Positions 7,330-12,936 of a stretch of 64,000 nt of DNA are shown here, in pieces; positions within the stretch are counted from its first letter, which is position 1; each line of letters starts with the position of its first letter. Source of the DNA: Candidatus Avelusimicrobium intestinipullorum (GTDB lineage Bacteria > Elusimicrobiota > Elusimicrobia > Elusimicrobiales > Elusimicrobiaceae). Under the pieces are notes generated by a model. The model did not search any database, was not told where the DNA came from, and saw only the letters and a program-made list of their open reading frames with translations. The DNA lies in the NCBI GenBank assembly GCA_944324635.1, contig CALUXC010000004.1, positions 1-64,000 of the forward strand, written 5' to 3'. The translations under genes and the position numbers were made by a program.

Positions 7330-8049
7330 ATGCAACTTCGCAGCGAACAAATCGTAAAAGTATATAAAGACCGCATGGTCGTAAAAGGGGTAGATATTCA
7401 CGTAAAATCCGGCGAAATTGTAGGGCTGTTGGGCCCCAACGGCGCCGGCAAAACGACTTCGTTTTATATGATGGTGGGCTTTATCAGCCCCACCAAAGGC
7501 CGCGTATTTATTGACGGGGACGACGTCACCCAGCTGCCCATGTACGAACGCGCCCGCCACGGCCTGGGATATCTGGCCCAGGAACCCACCATTTTCAAGG
7601 GCCTTACCGTGGAAGAAAACCTGCTTGCCGTATTGGAACGTATTTTGGACGATAAGCAAGAACAAAAACGCCGCGTGGACGCCTTGTTGAACGAATTTGG
7701 GCTGACGAAACTGGCCAAGCAAAAAGCCTGGACGCTTTCCGGCGGCGAAAAACGCCGTATGGAAATTGCCCGCTGCATGATCAGCAACCCCAAAATTATT
7801 TTGCTGGACGAACCTTTCGTGGGTATTGACCCGATTACCGTGTCCGACCTGCGGCATATGATTTTTAAGTTAAAAGACAAAGGCATCGGCGTTTTGATTA
7901 CCGACCACAACGTGCGCGAAACGCTGCCCCTTACCGAGCGGGCCTACCTGATTTACGACGGGAAAATCCTCGTAGAGGGCGACCAAAACACCCTGCTCAA
8001 CGACCCCAATGCAAGACGTCTTTACCTGGGCGAAGATTTCAAGATGTGA
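7330..8049 (+). CDS. lptB: LPS export ABC transporter ATPase LptB
   Basis: The 239-residue product is a single ABC ATPase domain with Walker A GPNGAGKTT, Q-loop region YLAQEPTIFKGLTVEENLLAVLE (LptB-like), signature LSGGEKRR, Walker B KIILLDEP and the switch His in ITDHNVRETL. The C-terminus LVEGDQNTLLNDPNARRLYLGEDFKM is typical of LptB. It energises extraction of LPS from the inner membrane together with LptF/LptG, which are not in this window. AGAGG lies eleven bases before the ATG. The stop overlaps the following gene. Confidence 0.95.
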   Translation: MQLRSEQIVKVYKDRMVVKGVDIHVKSGEIVGLLGPNGAGKTTSFYMMVGFISPTKGRVFIDGDDVTQLPMYERARHGLGYLAQEPTIFKGLTVEENLLAVLERILDDKQEQKRRVDALLNEFGLTKLAKQKAWTLSGGEKRRMEIARCMISNPKIILLDEPFVGIDPITVSDLRHMIFKLKDKGIGVLITDHNVRETLPLTERAYLIYDGKILVEGDQNTLLNDPNARRLYLGEDFKM

Positions 8050-8882
8050 GGCTCGCCGTGAGCGATTTGTTTGATAAAACCGCCGAAGAGCTGAAAAGCA
8101 CCTTCGACAAGAATTTCTTTCAAAAAGCCAAATTTATTCCCTCCGCCAAAAAGACGGTGGCCATTTTTTGCGCCTTAAAAGATTTCCTGTTCCAATATCC
8201 GCTGGAGTCGGGGCGGGAAACTACGTTCACCTTGGAAAGCCTGGCCGCGCGGCTGGAAGAGCAAATCAAAAATTCGTTGTGCTTTATGTGCAAAGAAAAA
8301 GCGGTTTGCACCCACTGCGAAGCAGAAGCCAAGCAAATTACGCAAGATTTCATTTTGGCCCTGCCCGATATCCAGCGCCTCATTATCAGCGACGTAAACG
8401 CCGCCTACGAAGGCGACCCCGCCGCCATCAGCCCTGTGGAACCCCTGCTGTGCTACCCGGGCGTAACGGCCGTTACGCTGCAGCGCATGGCGCATTTTTT
8501 GCATGAGCGGGGCGTGCGGCTTATTCCGCGTATCGTTACCGAATATGCACACAATTTAACCGGTATAGACATTCACCCCGGTGCCGCCATCGGGCCCGGC
8601 TTCTTTATTGATCACGGGACGGGCGTGGTGATTGGGGAAACGTGCGTCATTGGGGCCAACGTCAAGCTCTACCAGGGCGTTACGCTGGGGGCAAAAAGCT
8701 TTCCGCTGGACGAACACGGGAACCCCGTCAAAGGCATTAAGCGCCACCCGAATATTGAAGACGATGTGATTATCTATGCCGAAACCACCGTGCTGGGCAA
8801 TATCACCATCGGCAAAGGCAGCATCATCGGGGCCAACAAATGGATTACCCAAGATGTCCCCCCTCACAGCAAAATAAACTAA
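8046..8882 (+). CDS. cysE: Serine O-acetyltransferase with an N-terminal four-Cys motif
   Basis: The 278-residue product transfers acetyl from acetyl-CoA to serine, first step of cysteine synthesis. The C-terminal half is a left-handed beta-helix of hexapeptide repeats (GIDIHPGAAIGPGFFIDHGTGVVIGETCVIGANVKLYQGVTLGA) with catalytic His residues in FFIDHGTG and IKRHPNIEDDV. The N-terminal helical domain resembles the longer EpsC/SAT type. It carries an unusual C-x2-C-x5-C-x2-C cluster (SLCFMCKEKAVCTHCEAEA, about residues 78-90), which could bind metal. The start is uncertain: GTG at 8046 overlaps lptB's stop, and GTG at 8058 is an alternative. It is the last gene of the LPS operon, with a terminator behind it. 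Confidence 0.88.
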   Translation: MRLAVSDLFDKTAEELKSTFDKNFFQKAKFIPSAKKTVAIFCALKDFLFQYPLESGRETTFTLESLAARLEEQIKNSLCFMCKEKAVCTHCEAEAKQITQDFILALPDIQRLIISDVNAAYEGDPAAISPVEPLLCYPGVTAVTLQRMAHFLHERGVRLIPRIVTEYAHNLTGIDIHPGAAIGPGFFIDHGTGVVIGETCVIGANVKLYQGVTLGAKSFPLDEHGNPVKGIKRHPNIEDDVIIYAETTVLGNITIGKGSIIGANKWITQDVPPHSKIN

Positions 8883-8892
8883 GCCGTTTTAA

Positions 8893-9010
8893 CAAAAAAA
8901 TCCCGAGCTCATCAGCTCGGGATTTTTATTTATTCAAGCACGTTTTTATCAGGTAATCGTATATAGTTATTACTTCGGGAACCCCATTTTTAATCGGGCA
9001 AGCACACATA
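8893..9010. repeat. Partial third copy of the duplicated unit (3' end)
   Basis: This stretch matches 10524-10641 with one evident substitution (A/G near 8972): hairpin, spacer and the last codons plus stop of a tail ending CLPD. Beyond about 9010 the two diverge while remaining alignable as protein. It marks the downstream end of the tandem duplication. Confidence 0.85.
8894..8927. terminator. Bidirectional terminator, copy 1 of 3
   Basis: TCCCGAGCT-CATC-AGCTCGGGA (8901-8922) has seven T on the minus side and five T on the plus side. It ends the cysE operon on the plus strand and the orphan tail region on the minus strand. The same hairpin and flanks recur at 10532 and 11794. Confidence 0.9.
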
Positions 9011-9303
9011 AGCCACACAACCCATTGTATATTTAGCTCCTAACGATATACCCCCATAAGTAGTATGGTAATACGCCAATGTATTGGACTCCGATGAAGA
9101 ACAAAAAACAACTTGTTTCCAAATAAAAGACCCGGCGTCTGCGTAGAGAGCTTTTCTGGTTTGGTTATGGTGCACAAACACATTTCTCAAGGGGCAAATG
9201 AGCCCGTCAGGAAACTTAACGTAAACGCAAAACCAATCAAACCATAGCGATGTTATACCAAAAAGACGAGGAAAGAAACCGTTAAAAATATCCCGGTCGT
9301 TTA
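8990..9303 (-). pseudogene. Orphan C-terminal tail of the variable secreted protein
   Basis: The frame is open for about 109 codons from just after the stop of the 9330-10382 gene, but has no ATG until near its end. It ends LGAKYTMGCVAYVCLPD, aligning with the last 40 residues of the 10621-11643 product: C-S-x-S, L-x-YYH-x-x-Y-x-G, SLGA-x-x-TMGCVAYVCLPD. It lacks signal peptide, conserved N-terminal region and RBS, and lies behind the terminator of the preceding gene, so it should not be expressed as such. It looks like an old tail displaced when the gene acquired a new 3' end. A silent donor cassette is possible. A 66-codon ORF from TTG at 9190 exists within it. Confidence 0.7.
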
Positions 9304-9314
9304 TGACCGGGATA
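9284..9314 (-). terminator. Terminator private to variable-tail gene A
   Basis: TATCCCGGTC-GTTTAT-GACCGGGATA (9289-9314) with five T on the minus strand. It differs from the TCCCGAGCT hairpins that end the duplicated unit, so gene A's tail came with, or gained, its own terminator. Confidence 0.85.
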
Positions 9315-9329
9315 TAATATCATCCAGCC

Positions 9330-10382
9330 TTATTCCGTCAAACTCCGGCATTGATAAATATAACATCCACTTCCATACGGTGATACACAATAGGAGCCAT
9401 ACAATCCCGAAGATTGCGGCCAATCGCAGGACTCGTTAAGCCCATATCCTCTGTTGCAATAAGAAGAGGAAGCACGTTGGCAATAAGATTTATTTGAGCT
9501 TTTTGTAAATGATCCTAAACTAGTGTACACGGCACCAGTACACGGGCCCCAATTGCCCCAACTGCATGTATATTGGTTCCAACTGCGCGTCCGTTTGCCG
9601 GAGACGGTTACCGGCCCTATACGAGTAGAAGGAGAATCGCTTTGAGAAGCGTAGGTGTAATAAGCCTTAAAAGAGCACTTTTCTTCTTGTGTTGTCACAG
9701 AAGGGGATCCACCGCTACAAGTGCTCCACGTTCCAGTTACCCACTCCCCGGTAGAAGTATCACAGGTAACACTGCGTGTCTGCGTACCACACCCATTACA
9801 CTTTTGACTGGTAGCCGGTTTAGAAGAGGGGTCGCAGCCAACATTTTTAGCTTCTCCACACACCAAAAAAACTTCTTCTTTATCTTTCAATTTTAATTTT
9901 TGCCAAGATACTTGAGGCGCGTTTGGCGCGCCCGTAGCGGCACAGCTGGGAAAATCATTTTTGATTCTAGACGGAAACAGCTTTAGAATATCCACAGTCA
10001 TTTGATTTGTTTCCAAACTATATCCATTATTAAGAGTCCCTATACGAAGATCTTCCAAAAAATTGATTTCAGCCAAACCGCTTCCACTTCCGAGGGATAC
10101 TTGATTGCTAACAACAGCAGTTGCCGAATTCAGTTCCAAACGCCCTCTTTCTAAAAATCCATTTGTTACTTGTAATGGTTTTAAGCCGGCGGCCCCACTT
10201 TCAGAACACCCCAAATTCATTTCACATGTACTGGTTAACCCAACATCTAACTGTTTATTAACATTAATTTTGCTATATGCCACATACGGCACTGGAAAAT
10301 AAGTAACCATGGTGATTTTATTTTCTGCCTGGATAGCAATAGAAGAAAAAAGCAAAAAACACATCATCATATATTTTTTCAT
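9330..10382 (-). CDS. Secreted protein with conserved N-terminus and variable Cys-rich tail (gene A)
   Basis: The 350-residue product has signal peptide MKKYMMMCFLLFSSIAIQA, then residues 20-190 identical to gene B (TMVTYFPVPYVAYSKINVNKQLDV..., LFPSRIKNDFPSC, LKDKEEVFLVCGEAKNVGCDPSSKPAT). From about 191 it differs: CNGCGTQTRSVTCDTSTG then two W-x-x-C stretches (GTWSTCSGG, WGNWGPCTG) that recall thrombospondin type-1 repeats, and a Cys/Tyr-rich end. I recognise no family for the constant part. It is probably exported and disulfide-bonded; surface display is inference. AAAGGAG lies before the ATG. The promoter has a T10 tract. It ends with its own hairpin, behind which an older tail remains. 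Confidence 0.85.
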   Translation of the reverse strand: MKKYMMMCFLLFSSIAIQAENKITMVTYFPVPYVAYSKINVNKQLDVGLTSTCEMNLGCSESGAAGLKPLQVTNGFLERGRLELNSATAVVSNQVSLGSGSGLAEINFLEDLRIGTLNNGYSLETNQMTVDILKLFPSRIKNDFPSCAATGAPNAPQVSWQKLKLKDKEEVFLVCGEAKNVGCDPSSKPATSQKCNGCGTQTRSVTCDTSTGEWVTGTWSTCSGGSPSVTTQEEKCSFKAYYTYASQSDSPSTRIGPVTVSGKRTRSWNQYTCSWGNWGPCTGAVYTSLGSFTKSSNKSYCQRASSSYCNRGYGLNESCDWPQSSGLYGSYCVSPYGSGCYIYQCRSLTE

Positions 10383-10467
10383 AAATACTCCTTTTTGCTT
10401 TCAAAACCTTTCGGATAGACAAAACAACGGATAACACTGGAAACATCGCTCTCGGAAGGCAATTCAA

Positions 10468-10493
10468 AATTTATCAAAAAAAAAACGAGTCAA
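10468..10493 (-). promoter_or_regulatory. Promoter of gene A with T10 tract in the spacer
   Basis: On the minus strand, TTGACT (10493-10488) and the -10-like TAAATT (10473-10468) are 14 bases apart. Ten of the spacer bases are a T run (plus-strand A at 10476-10485). Spacing is short of the usual 16-18. The -10 assignment is by eye. Confidence 0.5.
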
Positions 10494-10523
10494 GTCTCCC
10501 GTCTTTTTCTCCCTTTTATAAAC

Positions 10524-10558
10524 AAAAAAAATCCCGAGCTCATCAGCTCGGGATTTTT
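10524..10558. terminator. Bidirectional terminator, copy 2 of 3
   Basis: TCCCGAGCT-CATC-AGCTCGGGA (10532-10553) with eight T on the minus strand and five on the plus. It ends gene B and stands directly before gene A's promoter. Confidence 0.9.
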
Positions 10559-10620
10559 ATTTATTCAAGCACGTTTTTATCAGGTAATCGTATATAGTTA
10601 TTGCTTCGGGAACCCCATTT

Positions 10621-11643
10621 TTAATCGGGCAAGCACACATACGCTACACAGCCCATAGTATGCAAGGCTCCCAAAGAAAACCCATTATACACAGCATGAT
10701 AATAAAACAATTGTCCATATTGAGAAGCACTGCACGCACCGCTCTTAACCGTGCTGGTGGTACCGATAGGGCCACTCCACGAGCTTCTAGCCGCCTGTAC
10801 CACTTCATTGCAGCTATTACCCGAATTAAAGGGACCTTCCGGTCCAACCACACTGCCATAGAACATAGGACAGAAAAAAGAAGAGCCGGAAGAAGAACCC
10901 GGATCAAAAACGCAGTCCATGGCAGCATCTCTCTGCCAAGAATAAGTGGCGCACAAAGACGCATCCGACACGCTGCAATTTCCCCAAGAAATCTGCCACT
11001 TTCCCGTACTTGTATTACAGCTTACACTTGCTTGCTGAGTACCACAACCGTTACACACCCTAGGAGACGGCGTGGCCGGTTTAGAAGAGGGGTCGCAACC
11101 AACATTTTTAGCTTCTCCACACACCAAAAAAACTTCTTCTTTATCTTTCAATTTTAATTTTTGCCAAGATACTTGAGGCGCGTTTGGCGCGCCCGTAGCG
11201 GCACAGCTGGGAAAATCATTTTTGATTCTAGACGGAAACAGCTTTAGAATATCCACAGTCATTTGATTTGTTTCCAAACTATATCCATTATTAAGAGTCC
11301 CTATACGAAGATCTTCCAAAAAATTGATTTCAGCCAAACCGCTTCCACTTCCGAGGGATACTTGATTGCTAACAACAGCAGTTGCCGAATTCAGTTCCAA
11401 ACGCCCTCTTTCTAAAAATCCATTTGTTACTTGTAATGGTTTTAAGCCGGCGGCCCCACTTTCAGAACACCCCAAATTCATTTCACATGTACTGGTTAAC
11501 CCAACATCTAACTGTTTATTAACATTAATTTTGCTATATGCCACATACGGCACTGGAAAATAAGTAACCATGGTGATTTTATTTTCTGCCTGGATAGCAA
11601 TAGAAGAAAAAAGCAAAAAACACATCATCATATATTTTTTCAT
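10621..11643 (-). CDS. Secreted protein with conserved N-terminus and variable Cys-rich tail (gene B)
   Basis: The 340-residue product has the same signal peptide and first ~190 residues as gene A, identical by eye. The tail diverges after PSSKPAT: CNGCGTQQASVSCNTSTGKWQISWGNCS keeps the C-G-C-G-T-Q / T-S-T-G-x-W frame. The rest (CATYSWQRDAAMDCVFDPGSSSG..., CNEVVQAARSSW, QLFYYHAVYNGFSLGALHTMGCVAYVCLPD) is unlike A and resembles the orphan tail at 8990-9303. It is probably secreted and disulfide-rich; role unknown. Same RBS as A. Promoter with T12 tract and a better 16-bp spacer, so this copy may be the more active one. Confidence 0.85.
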   Translation of the reverse strand: MKKYMMMCFLLFSSIAIQAENKITMVTYFPVPYVAYSKINVNKQLDVGLTSTCEMNLGCSESGAAGLKPLQVTNGFLERGRLELNSATAVVSNQVSLGSGSGLAEINFLEDLRIGTLNNGYSLETNQMTVDILKLFPSRIKNDFPSCAATGAPNAPQVSWQKLKLKDKEEVFLVCGEAKNVGCDPSSKPATPSPRVCNGCGTQQASVSCNTSTGKWQISWGNCSVSDASLCATYSWQRDAAMDCVFDPGSSSGSSFFCPMFYGSVVGPEGPFNSGNSCNEVVQAARSSWSGPIGTTSTVKSGACSASQYGQLFYYHAVYNGFSLGALHTMGCVAYVCLPD

Positions 11644-11728
11644 AAATACTCCTTTTTGCTTTCAAAACCTTTCGGATAGACAAAACAACGGATAACACTG
11701 GAAACATCGCTCTCGGAAGGCAATTCAA

Positions 11729-11756
11729 AATTTATCAAAAAAAAAAAACGAGTCAA
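11729..11756 (-). promoter_or_regulatory. Promoter of gene B with T12 tract in the spacer
   Basis: On the minus strand, TTGACT (11756-11751) and TAAATT (11734-11729) are separated by 16 bases, including a T12 run (plus-strand A at 11737-11748). It is identical to gene A's promoter apart from the two extra T. Confidence 0.5.
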
Positions 11757-11786
11757 GTCTCCCGTCTTTTTCTCCCTTTTATAAAC

Positions 11787-11820
11787 AAAAAAATCCCGAG
11801 CTCATCAGCTCGGGATTTTT
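11787..11820. terminator. Bidirectional terminator, copy 3 of 3
   Basis: TCCCGAGCT-CATC-AGCTCGGGA (11794-11815), seven T on the minus strand and five on the plus. It ends the TPR-gene operon; this is probably the parental copy. Confidence 0.9.
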
Positions 11821-11841
11821 ATTTATTCAAACACGTTTTTA

Positions 11842-12936
11842 TCAGGTGTAGCTTTCCAAATACGTGTGCAGGCCTTCCGCACGCGCCTGGGAAACGCCCG
11901 CCTCGTAAAGTTCCTCGGCTTCCTGCGTTTGGCCCAGCGCATACAGCACCTGGGCCAAAGAAAGCTTGGTTAAAATTTGGCCGCGGGTTTCGTCGGAATT
12001 ATCAAACAGCACACGCGCTTCCTGCAAATCTTTCAACGCGGCGTCCATTTTATTTTTCCGTTTCAAAATGTCGGCACGGCCCCATTTCACAAAGCCCAAG
12101 TCCACCGTGTCGTTGATGGCGGAATAGAGTTTATCGGCCACGTTGTAGTGGCGGAGGGCTTCGTCATACTTCCCCTGCTGGCGAAGGCCGTTGGCCATGC
12201 CGCAGTTGGTGTAGGCTTTGCCAAAAAGGTCCTCGCTTTTGCGGAAGATTTTTTCGGCCAGTTTATAGTTTTTGACGCAGTCGTCAATCTTCCCGCAAAT
12301 GCGGCTGATACCGGCCAGCCCGCAGTAACCGTAGGCCAAGCTGATGTCATCGCCCGCTTTTTTGGCCAAAGAAATAGCTTTTTTGAATTGGGCAATCCCT
12401 TCCTGAAAATGACCCTGCAAGCGGAAGATGCCGCCTTTGGCCCAGTGGATAAAGCTCATTCCCGCGTAGTCTTTCAGCTGGGTATATGCGGCCAATACGG
12501 CGTCCAGCAAGTCCAGCGCTTCTTCCAGCCGGCCCCAGGCACGCAACGCCATGCCCATTTCCTGCATGGCACGCACCACAAACTCGTCGTATTCCAATTC
12601 CTGCGCCATATTCAGGGCGTCCTGCGCCAGTTCATACGCCGCGGCGGAATGCCCCAACGTGCGGTAGCAGGCCGCCATGGCCAACAGCACGTCCATGCGG
12701 GTTTCGGCTTCGTCGGCCAGCTGCAGGGCTTTGGCATAGCTTTTCAGCGCATCTTCAAACGAACCCAACTGGCGCTGGGCTTCGCCGGTCAAAAACCACG
12801 CCGCCGCGTCTTTGGTGCGGGCGGAAACCAGCTTTTCCAACGCTTCGGAAGGGCGGTTGGCTTCCAACAGTTCTTCCAGGGCGGCTAAATCCAATTTTAC
12901 GGCTCGTTTGACGGTTTTCTTTTTGTTTGCGGGCAT
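11842..12936 (-). CDS. Cytoplasmic tetratricopeptide-repeat protein
   Basis: The 364-residue product has a Lys-rich start (MPANKKKTVKRAV) and then about eight TPR-like helical pairs from residue 15 to the end (AAWFLTGEAQRQLGSFEDALKSYAKAL, YAGMSFIHWAKGGIFRLQGHFQEGIAQFKKAISLAKKAG, AYTNCGMANGLRQQGKYDEALRHYNVADKLY). There is no signal peptide or TM segment, so it is a cytoplasmic scaffold. Spacing between repeats (about 40) recalls LGN/Rapsyn-like TPRs. It is the last gene of a minus-strand unit with the receiver-domain gene 45 bp upstream, so a role as a partner of that regulator is possible but unproven. GGGAG lies eight bases before the ATG. Confidence 0.85.
   Translation of the reverse strand: MPANKKKTVKRAVKLDLAALEELLEANRPSEALEKLVSARTKDAAAWFLTGEAQRQLGSFEDALKSYAKALQLADEAETRMDVLLAMAACYRTLGHSAAAYELAQDALNMAQELEYDEFVVRAMQEMGMALRAWGRLEEALDLLDAVLAAYTQLKDYAGMSFIHWAKGGIFRLQGHFQEGIAQFKKAISLAKKAGDDISLAYGYCGLAGISRICGKIDDCVKNYKLAEKIFRKSEDLFGKAYTNCGMANGLRQQGKYDEALRHYNVADKLYSAINDTVDLGFVKWGRADILKRKNKMDAALKDLQEARVLFDNSDETRGQILTKLSLAQVLYALGQTQEAEELYEAGVSQARAEGLHTYLESYT

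Follow-up and report, generated by a model that had tools for sequence, protein, structure and literature searches.

The window analysed here comprises the first 64 kb of contig C4, a contig of 174 kb, in a 1.57-Mb genome assembled in 9 contigs with a completeness of 92.6% (G000). Two genes which we take to be TPR-like and cysE-like, called so by recognition of their sequence without a family search, enclose on the minus strand the tandem genes B and A, followed by an orphan open frame (Table 1). No Rfam match to a known RNA was obtained at the locus. The stop codon of gene A occupies 9330–9332. The startless frame of about 109 codons that a preliminary description had placed directly behind this stop and the hairpin of A was confirmed: it is open for 109 codons (9319–8993, minus strand), is preceded by TGA and ends in a TAA at 8992–8990.

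Table 1. Features of the interval between the cysE-like and TPR-like genes (positions in the window)
Feature	Position	Strand	Basis
cysE-like flanking gene, convergent	8046–8882	+	ORF; named by sequence recognition
61-bp repeat T3, between stub and cysE	8894–8954	.	Repeat comparison
3' segment common with gene B (10525–10641): last codons, 3'UTR, T repeat	8894–9010	-	One mismatch (8972)
Stub: last 37 codons of a B-type tail, stop 8990–8992	8993–9103	-	Tail similarity, codon score, mismatch positions
Non-coding spacer, probably 3' flank that arrived with the A tail; open by chance	9104–9287	-	Codon score, homology negatives
Private terminator-like hairpin of gene A	9288–9315	-	-18.9 kcal/mol, z -3.96
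Gene A, 350 aa: conserved front (to about 9811) and A-type tail	9330–10382	-	ORF
Shared 5' block of A: T2, upstream region, constant coding region	9811–10585	-	Near-identical DNA to 11071–11847
61-bp repeat T2, between B and A	10525–10585	.	Repeat comparison
Gene B, 340 aa: conserved front (to about 11072) and B-type tail	10621–11643	-	ORF
Shared 5' block of B, from TPR stop codon and T1	11071–11847	-	Near-identical DNA to 9811–10585
61-bp repeat T1: TPR 3' end and two-way terminator hairpin	11787–11847	.	Repeat comparison, hairpin prediction
TPR-like flanking gene	11842–12936	-	ORF; named by sequence recognition

The fronts of A and B are nearly identical in DNA sequence over about 770 bp, from a 61-bp repeat through the constant coding region (mismatches at 9813 and 9837, with T-run indels upstream), and the tails diverge immediately past the residues SSKPA. 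The 61-bp sequence, which contains the TPR stop codon and a two-way terminator hairpin, is present in three copies, one each behind TPR, B and the end of the orphan. The ends of the orphan and of B are identical over 117 bp except for a single base. Since this 3' segment and the fronts are both near-identical, A and B lie within one duplicated unit that is delimited by the T repeats.

A private terminator had been attributed to gene A, and a hairpin is indeed predicted there; only four U follow its predicted stem, however, and it is absent from the terminator list of the consensus scan, which makes it a plausible terminator but not a textbook one. The orphan frame begins within this hairpin and its 5' end is therefore without biological meaning. 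The spacer between the hairpin and the conserved end of the frame (184 bp) occurs once in the genome; it has no relative in 66 genomes of the genus and none in units A and B or in the TPR gene, and neither a trace of the front nor a T repeat was found in it.

The C-terminus of the orphan had been aligned with the tail of B. The motifs on which this was based (among them C-S-x-S, YYH and SLGA) are present and do align, but the similarity is confined to the last 37 codons: it begins sharply at orphan codon 73, with an abrupt boundary at 9103/9104, and amounts to 24/37 identical residues relative to gene B and 28/37 relative to the B-type tail of a related genome (G073). The first 72 codons matched the tails of A, B and the G073 homologue in no frame and have no relative among the 66 genomes of the genus; a frame-shifted B tail in this part was ruled out by the lack of similarity in three frames. 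On a codon score trained on related family genes, windows of true tails reach about +8 to +15 in the correct frame and fall below zero in the others; the last 37 codons scored +3.6, and the preceding 72 codons (scored on 9104–9319) behaved like off-frame sequence, at −14.3. About 7% of shuffled sequences were as open as the 72-codon stretch and 0.75% as open as all 109 codons. The whole frame as a tail was ruled out by homology and codon score; because tail homology and coding signal are restricted to the last 37 codons, what remains is a stub of a tail and unfit as a silent donor of a complete one.

Stub and B differ at 43 of the 114 bases compared (8993–9106), with 21 mismatches at third, 13 at first and nine at second codon positions, and the excess at third positions suggests that much of this divergence arose while both were coding. 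Judged from these comparisons, the stub is most likely the end of a distinct, once-used B-type tail rather than a decayed copy of B. As in-frame starts the orphan offers only TTG/GTG codons in its interior and a single ATG at 9025, which lies 11 codons ahead of the stop; none that has a ribosome site, as judged by eye, yields more than 11 residues. The frame therefore lacks a credible start. A promoter-like match lies at 9341–9314; such matches occur at chance frequency (five found versus 6.8 expected). We infer that the stub is unexpressed, and it probably has no function of its own.

A and B belong to a genus-wide, previously undescribed family, the members of which consist of a signal peptide, about 190 conserved residues and Cys-rich tails of unrelated types. 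Relatives of the front were found in 60 of the 66 genomes of the genus, in a comparison that covers one genome per species, and in none of 24 genomes from other genera of the order. Neither A nor B matched Pfam (even at E 0.1), NCBIfam (at E 1) or the PDB, the tails matched no family, and the predicted structure of B (mean pLDDT 50.8) was too poor for a fold search. The fronts are 100% identical between A and B, 96–97% identical among three loci of G073 and 67% identical between the two genomes. Between these same genomes A-type tails are 74–75% and B-type tails 54% identical, with about 30–36% between types; gene B as a whole is 62% identical to its G073 homologue. Because similarity of the fronts goes with the genome and that of the tails with the tail type, tails and fronts have been reshuffled; within a genome the fronts evolve together, whereas each tail retains its type.

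An allele fusing the constant region to the orphan tail had been named as the evidence that would prove displacement or switching. The constant region is joined to an A-type and to a B-type tail in intact genes on two separate contigs of G073, both of which break nine bases before the ATG of the family gene, and a third G073 locus has a different tail. No constant-region allele with the exact stub was found, the nearest being the B-type gene of G073 with its 28/37 identical residues at the end. In G029 TPR and cysE are 70 bp apart with a single hairpin and no family gene between them, i.e. the site is empty. A family gene lies directly behind TPR in G007, G012, G014, G028, G077 and on one G085 contig, which argues that the slot is an old one in which the tails have been changing. 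Across species (neighbourhoods L099–L118) TPR and cysE may be as close as 70 bp or separated by more than 20 kb of conserved genes in rearranged order, and the TPR end of this interval often holds a family gene.

The reading we favour, to which we would assign a probability of about 60%, is that an A tail recombined into the slot of the second gene copy, displacing a B-type tail and stranding its 3' end. The starting point would have been a two-copy tandem array of one family gene between TPR and cysE, each unit comprising a T repeat, upstream region, constant front, tail, 3'UTR and T repeat. Incoming DNA with the constant front, an A-type tail, its own hairpin and about 184 bp of flank would have entered the second copy by homologous recombination within the long shared front; its other end would have been joined illegitimately inside the resident B-type tail, 37 codons before the stop, which would have removed the greater part of the old tail and left its 3' end behind. 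What is observed directly are the homologies, the abrupt boundary at 9103/9104, the arrangement of the repeats, and fronts that are homogenised although their tails can be interchanged. The stub matches the ends of B-type tails and the match stops abruptly, both tail types are found intact on G073 fronts that are 96% alike, and an empty TPR–hairpin–cysE site exists. The order of these events and the one-sided illegitimate join are inferred; bacterial integration with homologous exchange at one end and an illegitimate join at the other is documented (PMC3240628). A donor with the A tail and the 184-bp flank was not found in the 66 genomes of the genus, and the illegitimate junction therefore cannot be read from both parents; for a second strain of the species a scan of genome contigs gave a chance match only, and viral contigs gave none. 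As the stub and B are far more different than their near-identical surroundings, at least one further tail exchange is needed. The earlier observation that an older 3' end survives as a relic downstream of a newer tail and hairpin is supported, since stub, 3'UTR and terminator match the end of B; it was right in outline and overstated in size, and its displaced-tail reading is likely.

The chief alternative, a possible though less likely origin of the same arrangement, is a deletion in a longer array. A third complete gene with a B-like tail would once have stood behind A, and a deletion from the 3' flank of A into this gene would have removed its upstream region, its front and most of its tail, the stub then being a relic that A did not displace. 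A single event of this kind gives the same junction, and arrays bounded by T repeats could expand or shrink by recombination between the repeats. More steps are required, however: a third unit, and an A unit closed by a hairpin and flank of foreign origin instead of a T repeat; moreover, between A and the stub the front and T repeat have left no trace. It is rather unlikely that the family is a working surface-variation system, in which gene conversion would keep the fronts alike so that tails swap between dispersed and tandem loci, the 61-bp repeats would let units expand and contract and the stub would be debris of a recent switch. Misjoining of the near-identical repeats of about 770 bp during assembly is still less probable: identical fronts do seem to break the assemblies of relatives (contigs of G073 and G085 stop there) and the source assembly has 9 contigs and a completeness of 92.6%, but the junction at 9103/9104 lies outside any repeat, the adjacent spacer is single-copy in the genome and the contig is long.

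That the orphan might be a silent donor cassette, as also proposed in the preliminary description, or a small gene, kept by selection for tail switching or expression, is hardly credible and is not upheld: its last 37 codons are coding-like, the 117-bp match to the end of B could pair and a promoter-like match is at hand, but about 120 of some 150 tail codons are missing, the 72-codon part has no coding signal, usable starts give at most 11 residues, promoter-like matches are at chance level and no second orphan tail was found behind about 35 family genes examined. Silent cassettes are complete promoterless donors flanked by homology, and only 37 tail codons are present here. Whole donor cassettes have reportedly been seen in the Neisseria TpsA and MafB families, unlike the stub at this locus. 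The locus resembles these families in having variable 3' ends on a constant gene (TpsA, PMC3848433; MafB, PMC4287609), a likeness of arrangement.

The proposed displacement of a resident tail by an A tail can be compared with C-terminal displacement in Rhs genes (Jackson et al., 2009, PMC2935791). In both, 3' tips that lack homology to one another are exchanged on a conserved 5' part, the fronts are near-identical within a locus or genome, and a startless old tip lies behind the current gene. Here one homogenised front carries unrelated tails at several loci (A and B alike in G000; three loci with three tails in G073), and the startless old tip downstream is a 37-codon fragment only. Unlike Rhs proteins, A and B are short secreted Cys-rich proteins without an Rhs core or toxin features, and no Rhs/YD-repeat core was recognised among the Pfam and NCBIfam models. 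The circle-insertion model for Rhs predicts a core fragment before the old tip (PMC2935791); no such fragment precedes the dissociated end here, and the old end is truncated, as is expected of one-sided illegitimate recombination. Rhs-type circle insertion was ruled out by the spacer without a front fragment. In Vibrio cholerae, where homology-facilitated illegitimate recombination has been proposed for displacement of T6SS effectors (Kirchberger et al., 2017, PMC5361080), a 3' portion of the earlier module likewise stays behind; orphan immunity genes are kept there, presumably because they are beneficial, whereas an immunity gene could not be recognised at this locus, where the remnant appears to be of no use. 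The toxin domain and following immunity gene of polymorphic toxins were not found either: the tails matched no family, A follows B, and the stub and cysE follow A.

The stub may be regarded as a small fossil of one recombination event; it drew attention to a genus-wide family of secreted Cys-rich proteins, and it reveals tail exchange in a bacterial family not described before. Fronts that evolve together while tails are exchanged would be expected where surface or secreted proteins face diversifying pressure, here outside the well-known toxin families.

Two more family genes of the source genome (C1:477781–478350, L003; C3:10000–10544, L005 and L006) are frameshifted, the break lying in the tail of one and in the front of the other, through decay, phase variation or base-calling errors. 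In G085 eight contigs (C4, C30, C34, C35, C36, C44, C50 and C83) carry family genes with differing tails, and that many of these are cut at contig ends within the front suggests many near-identical fronts. Other proteins (L008, L009, L126–L137; G000:C1:11493, G000:C5:90416) also contain the CNGCGTQTRSVTCDTSTG module found in the tails of A and B; in G066 and G025 a single frame holds many copies of it. At least some of these proteins have a type IV pilin-like N-terminus (N_methyl in L009), and the tails therefore cross protein classes. Within the window, three minus-strand pilin-like genes in a row (KKGFTLxELL; 178–1829) adjoin a GuaC-like gene, and this trio was found again in relatives.
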